This document shows positions 13,346-63,149 of a stretch of 64,000 bases of DNA, piece by piece. Location: contig JADLSH010000082.1 of the NCBI GenBank assembly GCA_016169945.1, forward strand, positions 992,001 to 1,056,000, given 5' to 3'. The notes under the pieces are model-generated. The model was not told the DNA's origin. It saw only the letters and a list, made by a program, of their open reading frames with translations, and made no database searches. Position 1 is the first letter of the stretch. The number at the start of each line of letters is the position of its first letter. Position numbers and translations under genes: made by a program. This DNA is from Trachythela sp. YZ-2020. Taxonomy: Eukaryota; Cnidaria; Anthozoa; Malacalcyonacea; Clavulariidae.

Positions 13346-13592
13346 TCCTAAACAACCTAGCCTGTTGACAGACTTTTTAACACTGGCAATCACAGTGTTG
13401 AACATTTGCCCAAATGGAGGTTGCCTATGTGGGAAACATTAGACATTGTAAGTTCTCTGCAAACTTCCAGTTTCACAAAATGTTTTAACCACAAACTTTT
13501 GTTGTTAAATGGGGAGTTAAACCATCTTTAAATTCATCAATACTCTAATAATTCATCTTTAAATTCATCAACTTTAAATTCATCAATAATTC

Positions 13593-15168
13593 ATCATCGA
13601 TGTTTTGCCAACAATAAAAGAAATCCAGAGATTTCATTTTATAATTTTCCGGATGGTAAAAGTGTGGAATCTAAAGAACTCTGTAAGAAGTGGATAAATC
13701 TAATTGCCCGCGAAGATTTCTCTCCAACAAAAGGCCATAGAGTGTGTTCTTTTCATTTTCCGGGAGGACGTAAAACGTACATGAACCCGCTACCGTCTTT
13801 GTATGTTCCAAAGCTTACATCAACGAAGAATATACATCCATTGCCAAAAACAACAGAGGTCGAGACTGACAGACACATATTATTCTCCGAACTTGATATG
13901 TTTGAAAATGAAGATGTAGGTGAGAATGTTAATAGTTGTTTACCAGAGAGAACAGTCGAACTATTTCCTGACAATGAAAAACTGAATGTTGACCAGACTG
14001 GTGGCAGACGGACATTAATTTTTGAACTTGATGATGAAAATCAAGATGTAAGTAAGAATGTTGATGATGTTGTTAACTGTTTACAAGAGAGAGTCGCCGA
14101 ACTGTTATCTGCCAATGGGAAACTCAAATCTGAGAATGAAAAGGTAAAAGCAGAAAATGAACTCCATAATAATGAAATCAATGTTTTGACTGAACAGTTA
14201 CAAGAACAGACTAAAGAAAAATATTTATCATTGGAATACATCAAGAATAATGACAGTCTTTTCAAATTTTACACAAGGCTTCAAGATTATCAGACATTTA
14301 AATTACTTTTTGATTCATTTATGCCAGCACCCAAGAACCTTGTGTATTATGGTAGTATAACATGTGCAGAAAGACTAATTTCTGATGATGTGGTGAAACG
14401 TGGCCCTAAAAGGGGTCTGTCACCAGAGCAAGAACTTTTTCTTGTGTTGGTTCGCCTGCGGTTGGGTCTGATGGAAGTAGACCTTGCTACAAGAGCTGGT
14501 GTATCTCAGGCACAGATCTCAAGAATTTTCATCACATGGGTTGATTTCCTGCACTCTAGACTGCGAGGTTACCCAATTTGGCCAACCAGAGAATCTGTGG
14601 ACATGACAATGCCAACACAGTTTAAAGAGTTGTACCCACAACACGAGTGATTATCGATTGCTCAGAGTTATTCATAGAGACACCCAGCTCTTTCAGAAGC
14701 CAAAGTGCTACTTACTCTAGCTACAAACATAACAACACTGCCAAAGGTTTGATTGGTATTAGCCCATCAGAAGCGGTTACTTTTGTGTCTGATTTGTACT
14801 GTGGAAGGTCAAGAGATCAACAAATAACCCGTGATTGTGGCATTTTGAATTTGCTTGAGAATGGCGACTCAGTTATGGCAGATAAAGGATTTGAGATCGA
14901 AGATGACTTGCCAAATGGAGTCTCTCTGAACATTCCACCTTTTTTTCGCAATAAAGAGCATCTTACAATCGAAGAAGAAACAGAAACCCGAAGAATTGCC
15001 TCACTTAGGATCCATGTGGAACGAGCAATCGCTAGAATTAAAAGCTTCAGAATTTTAAGTAATGTTTTACCAATATCTATGGCAGCAGATCTAAACAAAA
15101 TTTGGGTTATTTGCTGCTATCTTACAAACCTTTTGCCTCCACTGCTTGCAGAGCAAAACACAGCTTGA
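13593..15168 (+). pseudogene. THAP-domain DDE transposase (ISL2EU type), frameshifted
   Basis: The N-terminal part carries most of a THAP zinc-finger domain (HRCFANNKRNPEISFYNFPD, KKWINLIAREDF, HRVCSFHF). The first cysteine pair looks incomplete, and the start is lost in short tandem TTTAAATTCATCAA repeats upstream. A coiled-coil-like Glu/Lys-rich stretch follows (about 14080-14230). Next comes a helix-turn-helix region (KRGLSPEQELFLVLVRLRLG ... AGVSQAQISRIF). The DDE nuclease of DDE_Tnp_4 type continues in another frame from about 14647: IIDCSEL (first Asp), MADKGFEI (second Asp) and HVERAIARIKSF (Glu). The frame change at about 14645 is the only clear break. This protein would cut and join the transposon ends. 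Confidence 0.85.
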
Positions 15169-15191
15169 TCTGGGATGGGGGGGGGGGGGGG

Positions 15192-15540
15192 GTTGCCAGA
15201 AGCAGTTAGCGTGCTGCCTCTTACCATTGAGTTAAGCCACATGGGATTTTATCAATTTATTTCTGTAGAGTAACTTCTGTGTGCTTATAAGCTCATGTAA
15301 AGTAGAATTTGGTTCATGGTTCTCTTCCATGTGCTTCGAGGAGTTTTCCCCAGATACTCCAGTTTTCCTCCCTCAGGTCAAAAAAATATGTAGGTTACCA
15401 GTCTCTTCTTAATTTTTTTTCTTTAAGTTTTCAGTTGTGTGTTTCCACTTGTTAAAACAATTTCCTTTAATAAAAAGGTTAGGGTTGGGTTGTAAAGGCT
15501 TTCTATCCACGTCAGAGTGGTAAACATATTAAACTGCACA
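15192..15540 (+). repeat. SINE-like repeat, copy 1
   Basis: Shares several diverged blocks with 58021-58325: TAGCGTGCTGCCTCTTACCA near the start, a GAG(G)TTTTC...TACTCC...TTTCCTCCCTC block in the middle, and a GGCTTTC(T/C)(A/G)TCCAC...AGTGTGGTAAA-like end. The start contains a box-A-like segment, consistent with a tRNA-derived SINE, but I cannot confirm the tRNA origin. It follows a G run at 15178-15192. Confidence 0.65.
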
Positions 15541-15712
15541 AACATGATAGTACCTTTTAAGTTTATAACTCACGGATGTAATTTTCAGATTTCCTAATTA
15601 AGCAAGCACATTAATAAAGAGTTAAAACAGACCATGTTGTTTTTATTTTATAAACAAAATTATGATATCATTTTACAAATAAATTAACAATAGATACTGG
15701 CAGATAGTTTTG

Positions 15713-15843
15713 TTAACCCATTTACTGGCAGTATCCTACCAATGACGAGTAAAATTGTCTGGTGTTAGACAATAGAGTAAAATACTCTGGCGTTGGACAG
15801 AGTAAAATACTAAAGTAGGGTGCATTGCCGGCTAATGGATTAA
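15713..15843. repeat. Short MITE with TTAACCCATT ends, copy 1
   Basis: Begins TTAACCCATTTACTGGCA and ends GCCGGCTAATGGATTAA, an inverted-repeat arrangement. Two related copies occur at 56641-56740 (partial) and 56766-56860. No coding capacity. Confidence 0.65.
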
Positions 15844-16017
15844 AAATAATTACACATTCAAAGGAAGAATAAAAGAAAATGAAGTCAGTTCTGGGAGCAT
15901 TACCTTTACCCACAAAGAAATATCTTTGTGAATTTGCTCCACATGCATATCAACATTAGTGTAAACCACAAAGTCAATCCAGTTTAAATTTAGGATGTTC
16001 ATTACTCCTTGGCACTG

Positions 16018-17032
16018 TTAATAGTAGCCATGATTCTCTTTCAATCTCCAACCATTCTCAGTTTGTTTTAGATAAAATTGTTTGTTCTGCACAGCTTCGG
16101 ATATCTTTAAATCTTTGCTGGCGAATGGACATTTAACTTCCACACAGCCAACAGCGACACCATCTTTAACCACAACACCATCCGGACTGCAACCCAACCA
16201 TGTCCACTTTGGACTTACAACTAACCCACAACTTCTCACAACACCATCTCCTTTCAGCATGTCATCTTCATACTTTAGAATGGCCTTACTTTCATTATCA
16301 AGGCCCCACTGCAACGGTTTTGGTACTGCAGCTAGCGGTTTATTATACTGTTTTGTAATTGATTTAATCAATGACTTAGGATATGTTGACTTTCTTCTGT
16401 TTAATACTTTTCCAAAAACCGAAGCAGTGACTCTCTTAGATCGTTCTGTGTACCAGCAAGGATTTTTGCTTTGCTCCATAGTACTTAAACATATCTCCTT
16501 AGCACAAGATATTGTTAAGCCAACTGTTCTTTCTGCAAGTTCTAACTGTTCCTGGGTATAATTTGCTGGTGGGTGATAATCTCTAGGCACATTTTCAAAC
16601 ACTAGGTCGATTAACAGGCTTTCTGGCACTTGGTGGATTTGGCTGGGAGGAGGTTCATCCTGTTGATGTTTATTTTTTTGCTGACTACAGGAAGTCTCAA
16701 AAAGTTCACAAGGCTTGAAATCATTTGACTCAAGAGTCTGGCAGAACAGTGATGCCCGTTTGGCTTTCTTGAAAGAATCAGCCATAGCTTTAATCTCTTC
16801 CCCTGTGAGAGTTTGGGCAAATGGTGGGGTGGAACAATAATTGTCTCTATTTCCCTTTACTGGATACCTGTTTGTTTTTTTTTGCATCAATCTTTTCAAA
16901 CGATAGCTCTCCAAACTTTACAACCCTATCCAAAGTCTTAGAGCTCCCAGCTGGAACATTCCACTTTTGGGGAAGTTGCGTACATGTAAGTTCCACTGGA
17001 ATGTTTTGCAAGTTCAGGTTGGTAAAATCCAA
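16018..17032 (-). pseudogene. YqaJ-family exonuclease of an ISL2EU-type transposon, frameshifted
   Basis: The main frame (16914-16018) carries a YqaJ/lambda-exonuclease-like nuclease domain. Its signature pieces are SKRVTASVFGKVLNRR, LQWGLDNESKAILKYE, WLGCSPDGVV and VGCVEVKCPFA; the aspartate of SPDG and the E-x-K of EVKCPF are expected metal-binding and catalytic residues. The N-terminal part (CTQLPQKWNVPAGS) lies in another frame at about 17032-16885. The frame changes at an A-run (T-run on the plus strand, about 16876-16884), suggesting a slippage indel. YqaJ nucleases process DNA ends in phages; their role in ISL2EU transposition is not established to my knowledge. The gene converges on the transposase gene, about 850 bases apart. 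Confidence 0.85.
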
Positions 17033-22586: not shown

Positions 22587-23330
22587 TTATTGAAGAATGT
22601 ACCCCGTCGATGTACCCACAGAAAGTTTGCGAAAGGCGTAAATAAGACTATGATCGCTTATACTCACATGAGAAACACCAGAGCAAACAACCTTGTCAGG
22701 AGTATTTGTGAAAATATGATCTAACAATGTTGAGGAGGAGTCTGTGATTCGAGTAGGTTCATTTATAAGCTGAGAAAGATTATATAAATCGGCAATATCC
22801 ATGAGTGACTTCGAATCATGATCTAAGACTGTAGAGCTCAAATCACAGTTGAAGTCGCCCATGAGGTAATACTCGATATTTTCGGAATCGAGCATACCTA
22901 GAAGAATTTCAAAATAATTAAACATTGCTACAGGCGAATTAGGAGGCCTGTACCAAGTGGTAATAAGAAAAGGCTTGGCTCTAGGTTTATTAACTGAAAT
23001 ACACAGGTTTTCCAATTGCTCAAAAGATAGATCATGCCGAACTGAAAAATTTATACAGCTACGAATATAAAAACAAACCCCACCGCCAAATCTACCATTG
23101 GAATCTCTATCTCGCCTAACAATTTCGTATCCAGGTATATGTACTTCGTTGTCACCAACCATAGAGTCAAGCCTTGTCTCATTAATAGCCAGTACATCAA
23201 TCACATTATTTGATAGATAGATTCTAAGCTCATCAATATGTTTGACCAAACTGGTGATATTAAGTGAGGCAAGTTTAAAGCCACTCCTGTTTGGCAAGAG
23301 CAGGTTTTGAATGTTAGAAGTAGTTTGCAT
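22587..23330 (-). CDS. LINE endonuclease domain (exonuclease-endonuclease-phosphatase fold)
   Basis: This open frame encodes the target-nicking endonuclease: [17 protein letters not shown] (start), [10 protein letters not shown] (metal-binding Glu), [32 protein letters not shown] (Asp/Asn of the active site), LDHIFTN and [11 protein letters not shown] (the SDH motif). The fold and motifs match CR1-type LINE endonucleases. The frame ends where the linker continues in another frame. The start near 23330 follows an Asn/Thr-rich stretch and is not certain, because an upstream ORF1-type region is not visible before the hexamer array. Confidence 0.85.
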
Positions 23331-23370
23331 AGTCTTAGATTGAACATTATTTACTGAATTAGCAACTCTA

Positions 23371-23648
23371 GTGTTTGTGTTTGCGTTTGCGTTTGCGTTT
23401 GCGTTTGCGTTTGCGTTTGCGTTTGCGTTTGCGTTTGCGTTTGCGTTTGCGTTTGCGTTTGCGTTTGCGTTTGCGTTTGCGTTTGCGTTTGCGTTTGCGT
23501 TTGCGTTTGCGTTTGCGTTTGCGTTTGCGTTTGCGTTTGCGTTTGCGTTTGCGTTTGCGTTTGCGTTTGCGTTTGCGTTTGCGTTTGCGTTTGCGTTTGC
23601 GTTTGCGTTTGCGTTTGCGTTTGCGTTTGCGTTTGTGTTTGTGTTTGT
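23371..23648. repeat. (GCGTTT)n microsatellite with (GTGTTT) edges, about 46 units
   Basis: A long near-perfect hexanucleotide array. The two outermost units on each side are GTGTTT rather than GCGTTT, the same unit as the array on the other side of the LINE. It directly abuts the Gypsy 3' LTR at 23646. Ala-Phe and Arg-Leu dipeptide frames across it are artefacts. Confidence 0.97.
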
Positions 23649-23967
23649 TAACTACGTTTCGTTCCTGTAAAATACGTAGTTTACCCTTGATTAAAGAGTA
23701 GTTCGGATGGTGCTACTCCTGTCGATGTATGTGGCGCTGTTCGGTACTGTAGCAAGAATCGGCTTAATTCTTGCTGCCATGGTCGTCCTTGTATGTGTGT
23801 GTTACCCGCTCAAATTATACACGAAAAATACTACATCATTTGTTAAAACTTCACTTAAGTACAAAATATAAAAAGCAAGCTGCTTATCACGTGACTGATA
23901 TTTTACAGGGCACCCAAGACTAGACTTTTACTTAAATATTGGTGACTCAAATTTGTCACGTCACACA
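23646..23967 (-). repeat. Probable Gypsy 3' LTR
   Basis: On the minus strand a purine-rich tract (AGGATGGGAG) is followed by TGTGTGACGTGAC, the likely LTR start. The LTR end would be TTAACA at 23646, giving TG...CA ends and about 322 bases. The position just downstream of the integrase tail fits. No second LTR copy was found in the window, so the boundaries are inferred from the tract and the TG/CA ends. Confidence 0.6.
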
Positions 23968-27900: not shown

Positions 27901-28449
27901 TTTTCAGTGTGTCATTTACGTGGTATTGCAATGGTACGCTTAGCCTTAACGCTTAATCGTTCTTATTTGTTTACCCGATTAAAGCTCGTTAGTAATGCCT
28001 AATGCCGTAATGGTTTAGGGGCGTTATGTCAAATTAGCTTTTCTCCTTTATTCTATACAGTACATCTATGTTTGTAGCAATTAGCAGGGCTCAGTTTTGC
28101 GTTTGCATTACGCCCCAGACAGCGATATTTACGGCAACGTAGCACGTCCCATATATTTCTACGGTATTAAACACGATGTTTACCGTTAAATTCCCCGTTT
28201 TTATAGCCTTATGTGTTATGCATGCTACACACTATTGTAGTTAGACAATACCTCATAACACTTTATGAAATTCCCTACAGGCACTTTTATAGCGTTAATT
28301 AGAATACCGATTTCGTCGTTGGGTTTGCCGCGATTATTTATTCCGTTTACGGCCAGTTTGAAGTACGTTTAGCTGCTGTATACAGTATACTATAGCTATA
28401 TAAGCTATAGTTGGCAACCACTACGGGCGGTAACAAATAATCTATCCTT
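27901..28449 (+). other. Non-coding part of the YR element
   Basis: No coding signal; lies between the small Pro-rich ORF and the tandem repeat block. Confidence 0.4.
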
Positions 28450-29445
28450 TGAGCAAGACAATCTCTGGGTGAGACAACGAAGATTTATCCTCGGTGTGAG
28501 GCAACAAAATTTATTCTCTGTGTGAGACAACAGTTTATTCTCTGTGTGAGACAATCTCTGTGTGAGACAACAAAATTCATTCTCTGTGTGAGACAATCTC
28601 TGTGTGAGGCAACAAAATTTATTCTCTGTGTGAGACAATCGCTGTGTGAGACAACAAAATTTATTCTCTGTGTGAGATAATCTCTGTGTCAGACAACAAA
28701 ATTTATTCTCTGTGTGAGACAACAAAATGTATTCTCTGTGTGAGACAACGAAATTTATTCTCTGTGTGAGACAATCTCTGTGTGAGACAACAAAATTTAT
28801 TCTCTGTGTGAGACAACAAATTTTATTCTCTCTGTGAGACAACAAAATTTATTCTCTGTGTGAGACAACAGAATTTATTCTCTGTGTGAGACAATCTCTG
28901 TGTGAGACAACAAAATTTGTTCTCTGTGTGAGACAACGAAATGTATTCTCGGTGTGAGACAGCACATTTTATTCTCTCTGTGAGACAACAGAATTTATTC
29001 TCTGTGTGAGACAATCTCTGTGTGAGACAACACAATTCATTCTCTGTGTGAGATAATCTCTGTGTGAGACAACAAAATTTATTCTCTGTGTGAGACAATC
29101 TCTGTGTGAGACAACAAAATGTATTCTCTGTGTGAGACAACAAATTTTATTCTCTCTGTGAGACAACAAAATTTATTCTCTGTGTGAGATAATCTCTGTG
29201 TGAGACAACAAAATTTATTCTCTGTGTGAGACAACAAAATTTATTCTCTGTGTGCGAAAACGAAATTTATTCTCTGTGTGAGACAACAAAATTTATTCTC
29301 TGGGTGAGACAGTCTCGGTGTGAGACAACAAAATTTATTCTCTGTGTGAGACAACAAAATTTATTCTCTGTGTGAGACAATCTCTGTGTGAGACAACTAA
29401 ACTTATTCTCTGTGAGATAACAAAACGTATTCTCTGTGGGACGCG
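28450..29445. repeat. 1 kb tandem array of TCTCTGTGTGAGACAA-type units in the YR element
   Basis: About 1 kb of imperfect tandem units alternates short (TCTCTGTGTGAGACAA) and longer forms (adding CAAAATTTATTC). Variants (GGTGTGAG, TCTCTCTGTGAG, AATGTATTC) are scattered. Minus-strand frames that look like repeated CLTQRLSHTENKF are translations of the array, not a real protein. The array lies inside the element, before the Gag-like ORF. Confidence 0.93.
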
Positions 29446-52392: not shown

Positions 52393-52396
52393 TTAA

Positions 52397-52429
52397 AGGT
52401 AGGTTACAGTCGATTCTGCGCATGCGCGG
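52397..52429 (+). repeat. Kolobok left TIR
   Basis: 33 bases identical to the reverse complement of 62647-62679; outside base tetramer is TTAA (52393-52396). Confidence 0.95.
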
Positions 52430-52555
52430 TGAGTTTGTTATGAGTAGCCTACTCATATTACAATCATAACACGTTTCCAGTCCTAAAGCATAATAAACAC
52501 ACGCGCGACCGCCTTATAATCAATATTCATTCGACTGTCGCCATTGTAAGGAGTG

Positions 52556-55500
52556 ATGGCTGATTCCGGCACATCAAGTTCGAATGTAGATCCTTCAAAC
52601 ATAAGCCATCGTAGCAGATCTGAGGCTAGAAAAGAATACGACAAGAAAAGAGACGCATCTAAAGTGTCGTTATTTGATGCTTTCGAGAGGTGGAGAGCGT
52701 TCAAAGAAGATCACAACCTCAAAACCGATCAGCATGTCGCAAAGTTTCTGCTCGATTATTACGCATTGAGAAACACGTTATGGTAAGCATATTAATGATG
52801 CAAATAAACCTTTGACCTTTTATGATGATTTTACGCTTTTTATTTACTTTCTTTTACGTATTCTGTAATGTTTTAGCAACGTAGAAACTCAAACAGAGAG
52901 CGCAACGACAATGTGGCCATTGTCTGGCACTGAAGGAGTGAAGGAGAACAATGCACCCCACATTATTATCAGCACGACGTGTTCGCCAGGTAATGAAGTT
53001 GTTGAATCTTTGAGTTTTTTTATTTGATCTTGTTTTTATTTTATTCAATATATTCTTTTTTCTCTATTAAATAAATCCGTATGCAGTGACATCCTCAACA
53101 CCGGCGTATATGACTTTGAGAAGTTCTCGACGAAGGTTGATCCAAGACACTCCAACATTGTCTTTGAGGTTTGTTTAGCATAATGGCGTTATAATTTACA
53201 TTATTTGCTTACAAATTTCCATAATATGATTTGTTGCATTATTTATTTTTGTATATCTTGATACAGATCCGATCAATATTTAGATGAAACGGACGAGACT
53301 TTGACCGCTAGCGAAACCAGATCAAATTTCCCGTCGCCAGGTAGTCAACACTGAACAGGAAAATATGCACAACAAGTCTATAATTTAATATCTTATTTAA
53401 TATATTCTATCTTCTCTATTGAATCCTTACGTAGTGATATCCTCAACACCGATTGTAAGATCAACTCGACGAAGATTGGTCCAGTCGCAACAAAACAGCC
53501 CTTCATTGTCTTTGAGGTTTGTCACTTCTGCTGCCATAATTCTAATGAAGTTATTTTTTATATCAGACGGATAAATCTAGACGGGTTTAGCTTAGACGGA
53601 AATCCGTCTTCTAATATGAATTCAGCTAATAATCGCGTTCTTATTTGCATCATTTGCTCACAAAATTTATACATACGGTATATGTCAAATTTTGTGTTGT
53701 TTATTTATTTCTGTGGCAAGCTTTTGTGGCTTGCAGGCTAGCTACAAAAATAAATAAATAAAGTACTATAAGTGATAATCTAAATATTAACATGTGAGCT
53801 TATTGTGTAATATTATCTACCCATTATACGCATGTTTTCCAGTCTCATTCATTTTCTGGGACATGGTGCTTTGTTTTTATCGCAAATAAATTTAGCCTAA
53901 GCAATTAAGAAGCTGATTTGAGACTCAATTCAGTCTTGCAGATTTAGTGATTTTACTTGCAGATTTAGTGGCAAGTAATTGCATTGTTCGGTATGATATA
54001 CAGTATTAAGATTTTTATATATGAAGTATTTACAATTTACCAGATTTGATAAAAATCCTATTGGCGAAGAAACGATGTCTGCCAGTAGTGGAGAAAGTGA
54101 TGATGACTTTGGTGATGACATATCGGATCTGACTATCCAGCCACCAAACATACTATCTCCTACTGATGATTTTCCTCAGTAAGTATATGTAAGCCATCAA
54201 CACAACCCTTAAAAATCTGTTGTCAAACCTGTATTAATTAAGAATTAAAAAACGAGTCGCGTGCCGTTATGGTGTAATAATGCACGAGGGGTGAATGTTG
54301 GGAGAATACGAGAGAAGCTTGTAAAACACGAGGCGTAGCCGAGTGTTTTACACGCTTCTCGAGTATTCTCCCAACATTCCCCCGAGTGCATTATTACACC
54401 ATAACGGCACAAGACGAGTTTTTTAATTCTTTTATATTATACGTGGTATATAAGCACAGTAAACAATTTTGTTCAAAGATCAATATTGATATTCTCCTAA
54501 CATGTAATCACTGACGTCACTCGCAAGCTTTTTAATGTTTTCATTGCTTGGCAACAACTACAAGCTTGAATTCTGGCCGGCGAAGGAGCGAAAAACTTGC
54601 AACTCAACAAAAATTAGGGATTAAAAAGGCACAAAAACTGTTGAAATTTTTTCAAATATAGTGCACAATGATAGACAGATTGGTTTTTCGTTGTTCTGCT
54701 TCACTATTGTCCTGGATTCGTATAAAAGCGAAGGGTTTTTCCGTTTTTGTCAAGCTGCTTTGATGACATTGGCTGTCAAGTTGATTTTTCATCTTGAACC
54801 AAATATATCAGGCAGTTTTTGTTTGAAGGTACTGTTTGAATATTTGTGTTTTTTGCTAGTTCAGTGGTTGGTGGTTAAAAATTTTCTCAGACAAACTGTC
54901 AAGAAATGCATAAACATGTCGTATTTGTGTAGGTTTTTGTCGTTGCATCTTGACAGCTTAAAAACTGTACACATATTGTTTATATCTAAATCAATGCCAA
55001 AATGGTTAATTTTAATTTTTTGCACCTAGAACTGTGGATAAATTTGGTTTGGTTTGTGTTTAAAAACAGTTTTTGTACCTTTATATGTCAAAATAGTACA
55101 GATTTTCGCGTTTCTTGTCGCCGTTGAATGCCAACTTTCAAGCAAAAAAGTATATTTCAAACTCAGAAACAGCTACGAATCTTTATTCGCCGTTTATGTT
55201 CCGTTGTTATTTGTTGGCTGGCTTTTTTCCATCTCGTTTAGGTCTATTTTTTCTTGCTTTTTGACAGACTTTGGATTTAAAACTATTATAATTTTGTTCA
55301 TATTGTATTGACAATTCCGAGGAAAATTTAACAAGCGGGGACGATTGGGACGAAGTGAGAAAAATGAAAACGCTGGCCGTGCTTTATTGCGTCATAAAGC
55401 ACGCGCATTAGCCAATCAAATTGCTCGTTAGATACTACTTATAATATAAAGCAGGTTAGTGTCTGCTGAACAGAGGCTGTTAAGGTAATATTAAGGTGGC

Positions 55501-58500
55501 ATAAACTGATAAAGAGTTAGTCTATAATGTAATTAGACTTTCTCACACGGCAAATATTCCCCATTTTTGGGTACATGTTTTAAAAAACTTGTCTTTATAT
55601 ACCATATGATTTATGTATGTACAGTATTACTGTACATGCATGCAAGTAATACATACTTAATGCACAATTTAGATTGGATCCTGTTTTTGATGAACCCTTA
55701 ATACAGGACGTATAAAATATAACTATTAATGGGCATGATGGTGATGAGCATGAAGATGGAGGTGAGCCTGGAGGTGGAAATAGGGAAGGAGGAACCAAGA
55801 CAACGACATCATCAGAGTACATCTCTACTGTAGAAGAGGTTACCCCACAAGAAGCCATAAAGATGGAAAAGTGCATTGTATTTACAGACACTCTTATGTC
55901 ATTGATTACATCTATACATGGGAGTGTTTGTAAACGACAAGATTGTGGCCGTTCATTGGTTTATAGAAAGATGTATCGGGGAACCTGTCTTGTGGTATCC
56001 TGGGGGTGTCAGTCTGGCCATGTTGGTGGGAGATGGGCAGCTCAACCATCTTGCAACAAAATTAGAGCAGGAAATCTTACTCTTGCATCTGCTTTGTTGT
56101 TGTCAGGTAACTCATACACCAAAGTGGGGTTGATGTTCAACTTCTGCAATTTACAGTATTTCTCGCAAACACTGTTTAATCAGTATCAGCAGTTGTACAT
56201 CATCCCTGCAATCAGTGAGTTCTGGGAACAACACAAGCAACAAGCTTGGGAAGATAAACGTGAAAAAGATGTTGTGTTGAGTGGTGATGGTAGGAACGAC
56301 TCACCTGGTCACTCGGCACAATACTGCACTTACAGCCTGGCGGACATGGAAGATAATTCCATTCTACAAATGAACGTTGTGGATGTGAGGGAAGCAGCTG
56401 GAAAAAGCAACAACATGGAGAGAATAGGATTTGAAAGAGGAATGAATATGCTGCTCACATCACCGTTAGTTGTGAAAGAGGTAGTTACAGATGGTCATCT
56501 GGAAATTGCAGCATTGATGAGTAAGTTTGACAAATCGTGAAATGACATTGACAGTTTGCAACATTTTTCAATATTCTTACCCTGTCCACAACCTTTTCAT
56601 TTTAAAATATTTTTAAGGAGTGCAAATTATTCAGTGGTTTTTAACCCATTTACTATTAGTACCCTGCCACTGACAAATAAAATCATTAAATGTTTAACAG
56701 GGTAAGACACTAAAGTAAGGTGCATCTGCAGGCATCGCCATGCAGAGACACAAGAGACAAGTTTTGTTAACCCATTTACTGGCATCACCGTACCCTATCG
56801 TTGACAGGTAAAATTGTCTGGTGTTAGATGGGGTGCATTTGCCAGCTAATAATGGGTTAACAAAATTGTAACCAATTTTATCATATTCATTGACAACATG
56901 GATAAATTATGTTTTTTCATATGATATAGAAAGGGAAGAAAAGTACAAAAATGTTGTGCATCAAAACGATGTTTGGCATGGAGGAAAAAATCTTGCCAAG
57001 AAAGTCAATGCCGTAAGTACACTTATTTGATCAGGCCAAACTCTTTGTATGTTATTCTCTATAATAACATAGTCCAGACTAGTGTTCTTTTCAAGGGGAA
57101 AGTTTGTACCCAGTCAGATACGCTGTATAATATCTCCTAAATCTCCATGACAAATGACCTTTGTTTGAAACGTTGAGAACAATATTTATTCACTCTCTTA
57201 TAGGTGTGTGTTCATTATCAAACAAGACTGTATAATATTATTGTTGTGTTCAAATAAATGCTTTTCTATTCAGGCTGCAAAAGCAAAATGTAATGAGGAT
57301 CTGGAATTGTGGCCACCATCTATCCGTAATCATTTCTGGCACTGTTCCAAAATATGTGATAATGACAAGAAAAATCTCAAGGCAAGATTGGCCACTAATT
57401 TTTGCATTTAAATTGTGTGTGATCCTTTAAGGTCAATATCACAAAGAATATTTTGTGCATGTTAGTTTAAAGAAGTTGATCGATCAAATAGTTTAATACA
57501 TATCAGTTCTCGTTTTCAATTAATAAAAAAACTTGATACTGTATGCAATCACTTGATATGCATTTGCATACTTCTCAAAACAATTTACAGAAAATTTTAA
57601 GAGTAAAGAATCTACAATATGGTAATATTTTGTGTAAGTTTCATGTTTATACTGCCAAAGACTATTAAACTGTGCACATGAATGGGTGGTCTGTACATAT
57701 ATAGTATATAATCTAGGTTGTTATTGTTTAATAGGATAAATGGGTAGGGATCTTGCATCATGTGGTTGATGAACATGAGTGGGTGTTGAAGGAAGGCATC
57801 AATGAAGGAAAATGTGCACACGATCCACTAAATGAAGAAGAGCGAAGGAAACCGTGGTTGAAGAAGGACTCCCCTGCACACAAAGCACTTACCAAAATTG
57901 TTCTTGATACTCGCTTCCTCAACACACTTGGATACTACACCAACTTCAGGTAGTGATGGGTTAAAAAAATTATGGTATAATGTACAGTACATGTAAATAT
58001 CAGTATAACAATCACCCATAGGGATGCACGGGTGGCTAGCGTGCTGCCTCTTACCACTGCGTTAAGCCTGTAACTGCAGGTCTGAACACAGTAGTTAATT
58101 AAGTAGCGGTGCTTCCGGTGGGCTTTATCAACTCATGTAAGTAGAGTTTGGTTAGTTCTCTCCTGTGCTTTGAGGGTTTTCTCCCGGTACTCCGGTTTCC
58201 TCCCTCACAAAAAACTAACTTAGGCATTTCAAACTAAGCCTCGGGAACCTTTGTAATTGGGTTGTAAGTAAAACCTGTTAAGGCTTTCCGTCCACCTCAG
58301 TGTGGTAAAACATAAATAAATAATCATATAATGGTTGTTTTATTTTATTAATTTAAAGACACACTGGATTTCTGGAGTCATTTCATAATGTCATTTTGAT
58401 GTACGCTCCCAAGCGCCATGCATACTCGTAAGTATAAAGTTTAACAATTAGAATTATTGCAAATAATTAATCTTATGTTTTAGTTATAATTATCACCCTT

Positions 58501-59020
58501 GTTCCCCTTCAGAAAAATTACTGTATATAGCTAAACATACGGCATGTATGAGTGCTTGTGCTAATGAAGATGTTTTTATCTACAGATATCCTGTATACCG
58601 TGCCAGAAACCAACTTGCCGCGCTAGACCACAACCATCACAAAGGTAGAGCACATGCAACCACAGCTGATGGTCAACCAAGGTAACATAATGATGACTGT
58701 TTAATTAAATGAATTGTCTTCATTATGGTAATTTACTTGGTAATTGGAATTATAAAGTTGAATTTGTTATTAGGTTTGGACGCAAGTTCAGTAAGCGAAC
58801 ACAACGATGGTGCCATGTTCGTGTTCTGGAGCCAAAACAGTACAACTACATCCCGGAACTTTTGCTGAAGGTGTTCGAGAAGAGAATCAGTTCTGGGGGA
58901 ACTGTAGATACACGAATTGGTCTACTAAGCGAAGACCCAAGAAGGATTGCCCCAAACATAGCTGCTATTCATCCCCCTTCAGTAAAAGCACTTGTTGAAG
59001 CCCATCAATCAAGATTTTGA
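52556..59020 (+). CDS. Kolobok transposase (13 exons, one in-frame stop)
   Basis: Exons 52556-52782, 52877-52989, 53087-53168, 53267-53340, 53435-53516, 54044-54178, 55673-56520, 56930-57012, 57274-57381, 57735-57949, 58359-58427, 58586-58681, 58774-59020 sum to exactly 793 codons, with consistent phases. N-terminus: basic helical segment (RSRSEARKEYDKKRDASKVS). Exons 3 and 5 are duplicates (SSTP...RRRL). Core: Cys/His region (CKRQDCG ... GCQSGHVGGRWAAQPSC), GNSYTKVGLMF, LSGDGRNDSPGHSAQYC (first Asp), VVTDGHLEIAALM (second Asp), NDVWHGGKNLAKK, NHFWHCSKIC, HTGFLESFHNVILMYAPKR (Glu). Intron 9 is GC-AG. A TAA at 55713-55715 (codon 252) interrupts the model just before the core; otherwise it is intact. 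It would cut and paste TTAA-flanked ends. Confidence 0.9.
54241..54430. repeat. Hairpin with 88 bp arms in transposase intron 6
   Basis: Arms 54241-54328 and 54343-54430 are reverse complements with a few differences; the loop is only about 14 bases. Sequence includes CCGTTATGGTGTAATAATGC and its complement. Confidence 0.9.
54431..55450. mobile_element. Short TIR element in transposase intron 6
   Basis: TTTATATTATACGTGGTAT at 54431-54449 and its imperfect reverse complement at 55432-55450 could be the ends of a roughly 1 kb insertion adjoining the hairpin. Frames inside (54661-55029 and 55054-55311) are Leu/Phe/Lys-rich and resemble no family; I do not call them genes. Boundaries are tentative. 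Confidence 0.4.
56641..56860. repeat. Two TTAACCCATT MITE copies in transposase intron 7
   Basis: A partial copy at about 56641-56740 and a fuller one at 56766-56860 (ends TTAACCCATTTACTGGCA and GCCAGCTAATAATGGGTTAA). Related to 15713-15843. Confidence 0.65.
58021..58325 (+). repeat. SINE-like repeat, copy 2, in transposase intron 10
   Basis: Begins GGTGGCTAGCGTGCTGCCTC (box-A-like) with GGTCTGAACAC about 50 bases on (box-B-like). Contains GGGTTTTCTCCCGGTACTCC then GGTTTCCTCCCTC, and ends with GGTAAAACATAAATAAATAA. Related to 15192-15540. Confidence 0.7.
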
Positions 59021-60430
59021 TGAGATTACTGTGTGTAGATAGAGCTCGTAAGCCTTGGCAGGCAGTCTATCTAGGAGAAGGAAAACTCTGATTTCAAACC
59101 CCCAGACCCCACTTTCGGGTCAGGCTGTCCATGTCGGACTCATTGATGCAAATCAAAATTTTGTCAGTGTGTCCTAGGCATGCTGATGAGCTCTGATATA
59201 GAGCGAAACAGCCATACATTCAGCCATAGACATATTTTCTAGGGGGGGGGGCACCCACCCCAGAAAATTTTCCCACATCTAAACGAAATTGGCACCCCCA
59301 CCTCCCAGAAAATGAAATGCTAATTGACTTAAATGACAGTAGTGATGTAGTATGATTTAAATATAAAGTGACAGATTTCGTTTGCACACCCCCCCCCAGA
59401 AAAATTTGAAAATCCATCTATGCATTTACCGACTCTTTTCCATCTGGAAGAAATGTGATTGATGAACTGATTTAATTAATTTTGTACCAAGAATATGAAA
59501 TATTATACAATTAATAATTAATATGTAAATAGAACATGGTTATTTTGCTGATACCTGTACCAAGATCTTGATGGCCAATAAAATACAGTCGATGACCAGT
59601 AATTTATTGAAGAATTTGTTTTAGGCTACAGCAAATCATGACCAGACTGTGACTTGTCTATGGTTAAACTGAGTAGAAATTACAATGTAGGGAGGCACAA
59701 CCCAATAAGTTAATTGTTCACATACTATTTTTAGTATTGAACTCCACTAGTAAATAACAAAAAACGAAACTGCCTGCTAGAACTTCTTGTTAATAACCAC
59801 ATGCAAGAATTTGTTAACACAAAGGCTCTCCTCTTATTTATAATTCCATATCCAGCAAATAATGGAAGTAAACCCTAACGATATAGCCTGTGAACAGTAT
59901 ATACATAAATTTTGTTATCTGTATTGACTGTGAATCGGCAAACAATAACTTGTTCTGATCATGCGAGAATCAGGGGGAACTTGTGACAGGCTAAACAATA
60001 ATTATATAGAATAATATGACACGATAGACTATAAATCCGAAATTATGCACTAATAATATGAAGATGTGACTGAACAATATTTTGTTTGTCGATTCGCAGT
60101 CTATACACAGGAAACAAAATTTCTGTGTACACTGTGCACAGGCTACTAATTCCATAATACACGAATTGCAAAATTTGGACAAAAATCACAGTTAAAGAAA
60201 AACATGTAGCCAACACGAATGCATGACTGAACATTTGAATACTTTAGTACGCATATTTTAAATCATCCAGTCACAGCTACATGTTTTTCTTTAACTGTGA
60301 TTTTTGCCCGACTCAGAATGTGTCATTTGGATACGCAGCCGAATTTTGCGATTTGTGTATGCAGGCAAGTTAAATTGTCTGCTTTTAGACAAAATAGAAC
60401 ATATTAAATAAAGGATTGTATGCTTAATGT
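59021..60430. other. Gap between the two convergent Kolobok genes
   Basis: No coding frame of note. Contains two opposed C/G-rich scraps (59239-59298 and 59387-59399) and a 31-base-arm hairpin at 60179-60306. Confidence 0.5.
60179..60306. repeat. Hairpin with about 31 bp arms between the Kolobok genes
   Basis: ACAGTTAAAGAAAAACATGT in the left arm (60179-60210) pairs with the right arm (60276-60306); the loop is about 65 bases. It lies past the 3' ends of both genes. Confidence 0.8.
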
Positions 60431-62232
60431 CTACAAACGTGCAGGCCTATATCCTGTGTACACACCATTGGGTGAAGGGTAACGAGCACGTATGGCAACA
60501 ACACAGCAGCTTGGAACAACCCTTCTGTTACCCCTTCCCAACCTTCCATGTTGCCATAGTACATATTGTCTATATGCTGCATGGCGAAAACTTTGATTAT
60601 TTCTGACATTGTTCAGAACAAGAACATCCTCCCTGTATCTCATTGCAATCTCCAGAACATTGCCATCAGTAACTACTTGTCTAAATACATTTGTTCTGGA
60701 GATGCATGGACGTCTTACTGTTGCACAGCATTTGTTCTCATCCTGCGTTGGCATAACAATGCAGTGACCACAATTGCACCACTCAGGGGTTTCGTTGTCG
60801 GGATCTGGGCCTGGTGGTTGTTGTTGATCTGTGCCTGCCAACTCACCATTCACCACATCAGCAAATGCTGCTGGCTGTCTTCTTAGAAGCTCCAAAGCAA
60901 ATCTTCTAAGGGCGTCGATTTCCATTGCTTCTATTAGGTTCTAAAAAGATAATTAGCAAAGGGACTGTTCACACTGTTGCACTGGTAACACTAACATTAT
61001 GTCAATGAGTAAAATCAACTGAAGACAGAGTGAAAGAATAAAGCAGGTCACATTTCAATAGTTGGGGGAAAAAACTTTATCTTTTTAATCAGTAGATAAA
61101 TATTGTCAGATGATTTTAGTCATAAAAGAAAGAGCTTCGAAAGGCAGGTTTACATGCTCTCAGATGCTAGAATTTTGAGACCACAGTTTTTATTATGAGG
61201 GAACTGGCTGCCTACCCTGGTGGCTAGAGCATTATAGGTAATTAAAGAGTAATAGACATATAGGGACCTGGGTCCAAGTTTGTGTTATGTTCGTTCATCA
61301 TTCCGTATTTGTAGATAAGATTGATGCTTATATTAATAAAACTATAAAACTATACAAAGGTCTATGCAAAATGGATGAACTCCTATCTATGATGAACGAA
61401 CATAACACAAACTTGGACCCAGGTCCCTATATGTCTATTACTCTTTAATTACCTATAATGCTCTAGTGGCAAGTTTGTACTTATATAAATATAATAAAAG
61501 CTGACATATAGTTTTCTTACCACCAACTGCTGTTCATGGTTGGCTTGATTTTCAGCAGCATCTGGCTCTTCAGTTAAACGCCCCCTTCCAGTTCCACGAC
61601 CTCCTCTTCCACGACCTCCTCTTACACGACCTCTTCCACGACCACCTCTTCCACGCCCTCCTCTTCTTTGACCTCTCGCTCTACCTCTTCCCCTAGCACG
61701 ACCTCTAGCTCTTCCTCTGCCACGTCCTCTCCTATCTTCTGCTCCTATCAACTGCTCCTCTACCTCGCTTTCCAGTTCTTGCATTGAGAAATCAGAATCC
61801 TAAAAAAGTATAGTGTGAAAGTGAATAAAACTGTTCTTATATTAATGCAAAGAAAAAAAATAAGTATTTTATTCTTCTATCGATCTGAGGGTGACATCAG
61901 TGAGATATTTCCAGGCGATAATTGCAAATCATACATAATTCTTGTATATAATATACACAAAAGATTTGAATACTTACTGTGTCTTCACTGTCACTCTCTT
62001 GGGCTCTTCTGTTGTTCATGCAGCACCCAAAATCGTCTCCATGGCACGCGCTAGAACAAAAGCTGTTTAAGCTTTTACACGGACAATAATTCCGCCCTTT
62101 TTCGCGAAGACAGGCGCCGCGACAAGAACATGTAGTGATATTGTTGTCTACATTGGGCACTGCAGCAACACTTTCGATCACACTCGTTTCGAATTCGTCA
62201 AGCGAGAGGCTTTCTTCCAGTGCTTCTGCCAT
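60431..62232 (-). CDS. Kolobok-borne CXC / RGG / P2X7-ballast-like protein
   Basis: Three phase-0 exons (62232-61978, 61799-61521, about 60940-60431) give 347 residues with no internal stop. Exon 1: acidic start MAEALEESLSLDEFETS, then a cysteine cluster (TCSCRGACLREKGRNYCPCK, SFCSSACHGDDFGCCMNN) like CXC/CRC zinc-binding motifs. Exon 2: acidic segment, then a 50-residue RGRG/RARG-rich tract expected to bind nucleic acid. Exon 3: EWCNCGHCIVMPTQDENKCC, then FRHAAYRQYVLWQHGRLGRG and NRRVVPSCCVVAIRARYPSP. This pattern is the zinc-coordinating cytoplasmic ballast domain of P2X7 receptors and related invertebrate proteins. No membrane segments, so not a channel. Start ATG 62232 is the first in-frame Met. 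Converges on the transposase within the same TIRs; role in transposition unknown. Confidence 0.87.
61224..61466. repeat. MITE-like hairpin with perfect 78 bp arms
   Basis: Arms 61224-61301 and 61389-61466 are perfect reverse complements by eye, with an 87-base loop. TGG on both outer sides (61221-61223 and 61467-61469) may be a target duplication. It sits in intron 2 of the ballast-domain gene. Confidence 0.92.
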
Positions 62233-62646
62233 GACTGCAACAACAACTCTGGCAACATGTTTCGAACGAGAGATACCACATGAAATATTTTCATGATTAT
62301 ACACATTTATAACACTTCCAAGTCATTAAATTCCAAAAGTAAACACAAATTATCATTCATTGATCGAACTCGCACTTTCGGGATTTCACCGCTCCGGCTG
62401 TTGCCTTTTGATCTAGCTGACCACACACGGTTCAAAGCGGCCTCTTTATTCACGATTTTTCAATTAAAAGTCGTATAAAGATTTAAAAGTGTAGAAAAAA
62501 TTCAGTGAAGTACAAATTGTGAAACATTGCACTCCTTACGTCGCAAATTATTTCGAATGTACTGAACGTGTTCCGAACACCTGTCATATACTTCATGTTA
62601 TATAGTCAATGTGGTTCAAAACAAAAACAAAAAATGTAAACACAGC
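62233..62646. other. 5' region of the ballast-domain gene next to the right TIR
   Basis: About 400 bases between the ATG at 62232 and the TIR. The promoter of the minus-strand gene should lie here; I cannot point to a specific element. Confidence 0.4.
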
Positions 62647-62679
62647 CCGCGCATGCGCAGAATCGACTGTAACCTACCT
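62647..62679 (-). repeat. Kolobok right TIR
   Basis: Reverse complement of the left TIR, 33 of 33 bases; followed by TTAA (62680-62683). Confidence 0.95.
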
Positions 62680-62683
62680 TTAA

Positions 62684-63149
62684 AACCCCTTCGAAGACTA
62701 CACGTACCTTCAAACACATAATTATTAGGGATTTGTCCAACGTCAGGCGCAACATCCGATCCATTACAGTCGTTCAGTTCAAAAGGAAAAACACATTTGA
62801 AGCAGTACCAGTTTGTATTTGAATTAATACTTAAGTTGGCATATTCTCCATCTGTAACCCCAGAGGCAGAGCACTTTCCATGAAACCACACATCACAATC
62901 ATCACACTGAATTGCCTTTTGATTCTTTCGGCAGCCTTTTAGACACACTCCACATGCGTCTTTGACAGGACCAGGATTTTCACTAACATCACCAGCAAAA
63001 AGAACCAGACATGATGCAGGTAAGGTCAAGTTTAACGCTTGACATATAACTTTAGCTTTCAAAGATGGCGGTACATTATTTTGTAGTTTGGCTAAAACTA
63101 CGTTCAAAGCCTGGTGTATTTCGACTTGGATAACTTCGTTTATCAGCAT
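62684..63149 (-). CDS. LINE N-terminal ORF segment: 2A-like motif and PHD finger
   Basis: The frame starts near MLINEVIQVEIHQALNVVLA. A hydrophobic stretch leads to CLVLFAGDVSENPGP, matching the NPGP core of 2A-like translational-recoding sequences, though Glu and its neighbour are swapped relative to the D-x-E-x-NPGP consensus. A PHD finger follows (CGVCLKGCRKNQKAIQCDDC, DVWFHGKC, NTNWYCFKC), giving a C4-H-C3 pattern. The frame then reaches TCSLRRGF, where the Kolobok insertion begins, and continues in the endonuclease piece at 52392. PHD-bearing N-terminal parts with 2A-like motifs are known from CR1-like LINEs of marine invertebrates. Confidence 0.82.

Follow-up and report, generated by a model that had tools for sequence, protein, structure and literature searches.

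The window analysed here, a 64-kb stretch of octocoral DNA, contains a Kolobok-type element with two convergent genes, one for a transposase and the other for a protein ending in a P2X7 ballast domain. We call this second protein KolX, the name given by Kojima and Bao 2022 (PMC9587614) to the accessory second protein of the Kol0 lineage, whose clear similarity to the P2X7 ballast is described in passages of their paper. Among the literature searched, the name is confined to that paper. The features of the locus are the following:

52393..62683, no strand: Kolobok-type element including both TTAA duplications (10,283 bp without these)
52393..52396, no strand: left TTAA target-site duplication
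52397..52429, plus strand: left terminal inverted repeat, 33 bp, 100% complementary to the right arm
52556..52782, plus strand: transposase gene, probable first exon (open frame from ATG to a GT donor, assigned from its position)
55716..59020, plus strand: transposase core, seven exons, 540 residues, with D, D, DxxH and E motifs (exons 55716-56520, 56930-57012, 57274-57381, 57735-57949, 58359-58427, 58586-58681 and 58774-59020)
60431..60940, minus strand: KolX exon 3, with the helical ELLRRQP segment, the P2X7 ballast domain (PF20478) and the stop codon
61521..61799, minus strand: KolX exon 2, with the RG-rich tract
61978..62232, minus strand: KolX exon 1, with the CXC-like cysteine cluster (Cys at residues 35, 37, 41, 50, 52, 59, 63, 70 and 71)
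62647..62679, minus strand: right terminal inverted repeat, 33 bp
62680..62683, no strand: right TTAA target-site duplication

Organization of the Kolobok element

The 37-nt left arm of the element (TTAA plus 33 bp, 52393-52429) shows 100% complementarity with 62647-62683. When up to three mismatches are allowed, it has two matches in the 64-kb window, which are the element's own ends, while 100 shuffles yielded none. TTAA flanks both inverted repeats, as is the case for Kolobok target-site duplications, and the termini are AG...CT, in agreement with the 5'-RR...YY-3' form of Kolobok ends. An earlier note on this DNA had described a Kolobok copy with 33-bp inverted repeats and TTAA duplications, and these perfect arms, unique in the window, bear it out. 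Ends of the AG...CT type are given for Kolobok in passages of PMC9587614.

The transposase gene runs on the plus strand from a probable start at 52556 to an end at 59020. Its exon structure covers the probable first exon and the core from 55716, without the stretch between 52782 and 55716; within the core, one exon has a GC donor end and two joins are left open. The core matches PF20700 (Mutator-like transposase) with an E value of 1.1e-8 and carries, in this order, the motifs SGDGR, VTDGH, DVWH and LESFHN, i.e. the DDE arrangement with C/DxxH. The convergence of the two genes, also claimed in the earlier note, is borne out. Cys and His occur between C/DxxH and the last E (HFWHCSKIC), where they might form the zinc finger that Kolobok transposases have at this place. 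No CCHC finger was seen between the first and the second D, which rules out only the lineages that have one. The probable first exon has no THAP match (the N-terminal exons being only partly resolved); this domain is usual but not universal in Kolobok transposases, according to passages of PMC6004289. The long exon is preceded by an in-frame TAA at 55713-55715, which the earlier note had missed; it may break the transposase gene of this copy, or it may be spliced around. In KolX, by contrast, the frame is uninterrupted.

KolX lies at 60431-62232 on the minus strand, exactly where the earlier note had placed it, and its exons join into 347 codons without internal stop, also in line with that note. 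The exon junctions are AG/GT and in phase 0 throughout. The gene starts 447 bp inward of the right end and reads inward, as does the transposase gene from the left. Both N-terminal features read by the earlier note, the CXC-like cysteine cluster of exon 1 and the RG tract of exon 2, are present. Intron 2 contains a 243-bp stretch (61224-61466) with perfect 78-nt inverted arms, which appears to be a young miniature inverted-repeat element that inserted into the Kolobok.

Four other sequences were recorded in the window. A minus-strand open frame at 62616-63149, with a PHD finger (E 3.6e-7), spans the right end of the element from outside and contains GDVSENPGP, which we take to resemble the 2A peptides of some retroelements. 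At 13532-16917, a THAP plus DDE_Tnp_4 transposase gene converges with one for a YqaJ nuclease, and the two make up another two-gene DNA transposon, presumably ISL2EU-like. The minus-strand open frame at 22587-23651 carries a long Asn-Ala repeat followed by a part that, judged by eye, is retroelement-endonuclease-like, and 28405-28848 (minus strand) is a minisatellite that reads open as a repeat of SHTENKFCCLTQRL.

A ballast-domain gene lies within the element, and encoding KolX is what characterizes Kol0. On balance, we lean towards reading the element as a copy of a Kolobok DNA transposon that probably belongs to Kol0 and whose second gene encodes a KolX protein with a ballast, predicted to bind DNA and likely to aid the element's own transposase. 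The octocoral-type copy is a new KolX-bearing Kolobok. Its KolX, like that of Kol0 described in PMC9587614, is the second protein encoded by a Kolobok that has TTAA flanks and AG...CT ends, and its ballast has seven zinc cysteines; it differs in its octocoral source and in its N-terminal cluster and RG tract, which are absent from the text passages of that paper that were compared.

The ballast domain and its relatives

Two protein searches returned 42 and 58 matches, corresponding to 86 different proteins combined (scoring in the second search being limited to the 7983 candidates with most words in common). The sources named among these relatives are octocorals (Dendronephthya, Paramuricea), acorn worms (Ptychodera, Saccoglossus), bivalves (Mytilus, Argopecten, Saccostrea), a sea urchin, a lancelet and a goby. 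A third search, queried with an acorn-worm N-terminus, gave 3 matches among 4 candidates, all from Ptychodera, and no additions; an NCBIfam search gave nothing useful.

The earlier note had identified the C-terminal exon as a P2X7 ballast, and this was confirmed by the P2RX7_C profile (Pfam PF20478), which exon 3 matches with an E value of 2.2e-35 and 122.8 bits, against a curated cut-off of 23.5. Among PDB sequences, exon 3 matches four distinct P2X7 sequences (E 4.9e-20 to 4.6e-19). The window KolX has Cys at each of the seven zinc-cysteine positions, which were confirmed to be Cys in mouse as well. Fold was assessed on a relative, P0002 of Dendronephthya (78% identity over the exon 3 part), and not on the window protein. 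The P0002 model, with 61 of the 86 fetched proteins as input, has a mean pLDDT of 69.9, and 10 of the 12 ten-residue blocks from residue 211 to 330 reach at least 86. Foldseek returned 32 matches for this model: all 14 at E <= 0.001 are P2X7, and the other 18 are at E >= 3.5.

Individual residues were compared in 22 non-P2X7 rows, namely 21 of the 86 fetched proteins and the window; the 65 fetched proteins left out include lancelet P0081 and P0085, which are gene models without part of the zinc motif. The seven zinc cysteines are complete in 21 of the 22 rows, P0035 having a gap at C506. Five rat GDP contacts are named by Rump et al. in passages of PMC7016195. Of these, R546 is found in all 22 rows, H547 in 21 (goby has Y) and R578 in 20 (H in urchin, a gap in P0068), while R574 and K583 are each found in none; the window KolX retains three of the five. 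Passages of the same paper report H547 as absent from invertebrates, with which its presence in 21 of 22 non-P2X7 rows disagrees. Compared by description, the fish nanor and nanor-like proteins are likewise free-standing ballast proteins with the R546, H547 and R578 pattern, but a short N-terminal region is reported for them (PMC7016195, in part).

KolX thus resembles the P2X7 ballast in profile, sequence and fold (the latter via P0002), and at the positions of the seven zinc cysteines, R546, H547, Y550 and R578. Unlike P2X7, it has no channel part, lacks R574 and K583, and carries an extra ELLRRQP segment outside the P2X7-aligned stretch. This helical segment (60850-60940, minus strand) lies ahead of the ballast and is conserved among KolX rows. 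The P2X7 alignment begins only at residue 48 of the exon 3 peptide, so that P2X7 appears to possess the ballast but not this segment.

The N-terminal cysteine cluster and RG tract

A relaxed pattern, derived from the same rows on which it was scored, detects the cysteine cluster in 15 of 87 proteins (the 86 relatives plus the window), nine of which also have the ballast cysteines. Saccoglossus P0044, with only the first part of the cluster, was left out of this count. Across 12 aligned rows, eight cysteines and a closing N (C-x-N) are invariant. Nine cysteines in CXC order are seen in the five rows from acorn worms; in the ten rows of octocoral type, including the window, the eighth is missing and a His stands next to the seventh. 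When the first 85 residues of the window KolX were shuffled 200,000 times, no shuffle fitted the relaxed pattern, a result that demonstrates order, not kinship. Passages of Rump et al. (PMC7016195) describe the N-terminal parts as lacking obvious homologs; in contrast, octocoral and acorn-worm KolX have, judging from their alignment, a common N-terminal cluster.

The cluster shares with the CXC domains of LIN54/tesmin and MSL2 the order of its cysteines, the closing C-x-N and a partial profile match. However, eight residues instead of 4-7 separate Cys3 from Cys4, octocoral KolX has no Cys8 and has a His beside Cys7, and KolX has a single cluster whereas LIN54 has two. The published CXC consensus, CX[C/H]X2-13CX4-7CXCX5-60CX2-4CX1-2CX2-15CXN (PMC3447885, seen in part), fits none of the 15 cluster rows: the acorn-worm rows miss it at one spacing only (8 for 4-7), and the octocoral rows also by the absence of Cys8. 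Pfam TCR matches the cluster fragments of 3 of 12 rows, under threshold (best E 0.71), and has no match at E <= 10 in seven whole proteins. With hhalign, comparison of the cluster with three CXC rows (two from LIN54 and one composite) gave 53% over 20 columns, with a score of 22.4; none of 200 column shuffles reached this score (best 18.9), and the reversed template gave 2.4%. The cluster itself is modelled poorly (pLDDT 52), and Foldseek found no chain. Against PDB sequences, it retrieved nothing as a single sequence and, as a profile, one unrelated weak match (E 0.98). Proven membership in the CXC domain was rejected, given the consensus result in the 15 rows and the poor model, and we call the cluster CXC-like on sequence grounds, without claim of membership. 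We also dropped the idea that TTAA is selected by a tyrosine that reads TT/AA steps in the manner of LIN54: ahead of Cys4, three of the 15 rows have Y, five have F and seven have A. The CXC domains of MSL2 and LIN54 bind DNA, according to passages of PMC3447885 and PMC4974476.

The RG tract of the window comprises 57 residues, of which 81% are R or G. A tract with at least eight RG/GR dipeptides precedes the ballast in octocoral, bivalve, urchin and lancelet proteins; the goby fragment has a short RG run, and such dipeptides number 2 to 5 in the five rows from acorn worms. A connection of KolX or the ballast with a CXC-like N-terminus was not found among the matches listed in our literature search (subscription journals and supplementary files lying outside it), nor, within the same scope, did we find in print the cysteine cluster common to octocoral and acorn-worm KolX, the occurrence of the RG tract in several phyla or H547 in non-P2X7 rows. 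A term search of the Xenopus Kolobok paper PMC6004289 gave no occurrence of P2X or nanor.

Origin and possible role of KolX

According to passages of Kojima and Bao (PMC9587614), P2X7 originated when a P2X4-like gene fused with KolX, nanor is probably KolX in domesticated form, a few piggyBac families bear a relative of the protein in which most of the cysteines are missing, and Kol0 elements with KolX are present in diverse animals. A mobile-element origin of the P2X7 ballast is no new inference, since it is published there. The earlier note had suggested such an origin. One side of this suggestion stands, as a Kolobok carries a ballast gene whose relatives look multi-copy; the other gains no support from the tree, which is unable to root the event. 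In this ballast-domain tree of 24 rows, the window KolX is nearest to P0001 (94% over 120 columns), which represents 21 member sequences, and groups with the Dendronephthya rows, as would be expected of an octocoral host. Inner branches are open in 11 of 21 cases. P2X7 sits on a long branch (2.39), and the tree as aligned here gives no direction and no root for the P2X7 event.

The multi-copy appearance of the relatives is exemplified by the 21 member sequences of P0001 and by Ptychodera. The first 148 residues of P0033 are identical in P0076 and a 109-residue run is identical in P0084, and the three genes are located on three large contigs (41, 29 and 44 Mb). Near-identical KolX on three contigs would suit a mobile gene, element ends not being part of this evidence. 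That a host ballast gene was picked up by this copy alone is extremely unlikely: a single DNA copy is readable, and a related-locus pattern search of viral contigs (6 and 30 stretches) and genome contigs (38) found no further DNA copy of the family, but the relatives look multi-copy, KolX is a published Kol0 component (PMC9587614, in part), and the gene, with its start 447 bp from the right end, is directed inward, mirroring the transposase gene from the left.

Transfer in the reverse direction, with an old host ballast gene being taken up by a Kolobok ancestor and P2X7 capturing the host gene and not the element, we regard as improbable. Markers near ballast genes are common to sponge, molluscs, arthropods and echinoderms according to passages of Rump et al. 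(PMC7016195), and the unrooted tree leaves room for this scenario, but KolX occurs in the Kol0 of diverse animals (PMC9587614, in part) and its relatives look multi-copy. Following Kojima and Bao 2022, the ballast of vertebrate P2X7 and of fish nanor would instead be a captured KolX domain.

As for the role of KolX in its element, the CXC-like cluster and the RG tract would tether the protein to element DNA, and the ballast would be a zinc-stapled module with a guanine-nucleotide pocket, acting in the transposition complex. KolX would thus be a DNA-tethered helper of the element's own transposase. The same predicted binding regions would also serve a regulator that binds nucleic acids through the cluster and the RG tract to repress or fine-tune the element itself, or to work against silencing by the host, and KolX is encoded separately, from its own start close to the right end. 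We nevertheless hold a regulatory role to be rather unlikely, as it draws on general knowledge of transposon accessory proteins and the analysis gave no sign of silencing or repression. The earlier note's suggestion that the protein may aid silencing escape is not supported, since nothing in the analysis speaks for silencing.

The helper role could take a more specific form, which we consider a long shot: by analogy, KolX might be a DNA-tethered guanine-nucleotide subunit of the Kolobok transpososome, with its pocket acting in trans like the GTP insert of the P element, and with the cluster and RG tract targeting the element ends. P-element transposase requires GTP, and its inserted GTP-binding domain positions the transposon end (passages of review PMC7776569). 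Kolobok and P have in common DDE transposition and the C/DxxH signature (PMC9587614, in part), and both may possess a guanine-nucleotide site, which is inside the transposase in P and predicted in a separate protein in KolX. The same review considers GTP use unique to P among transposases, which cuts both ways for the cofactor reading. The P2X7 ballast contains GDP/GTP, and passages of PMC9859053 call the roles of its zinc and guanine-nucleotide sites unknown.

Should the ballast be a transposon protein, a transposition assay could address what it originally did. The N-terminal cluster and RG tract offer a first concrete guess at this original function, DNA tethering, and the conserved pocket residues a second one, a nucleotide cofactor as in P elements. 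If the cofactor reading were true, the guanine nucleotide of the P2X7 ballast would be a leftover transposition cofactor in an immune ion channel.
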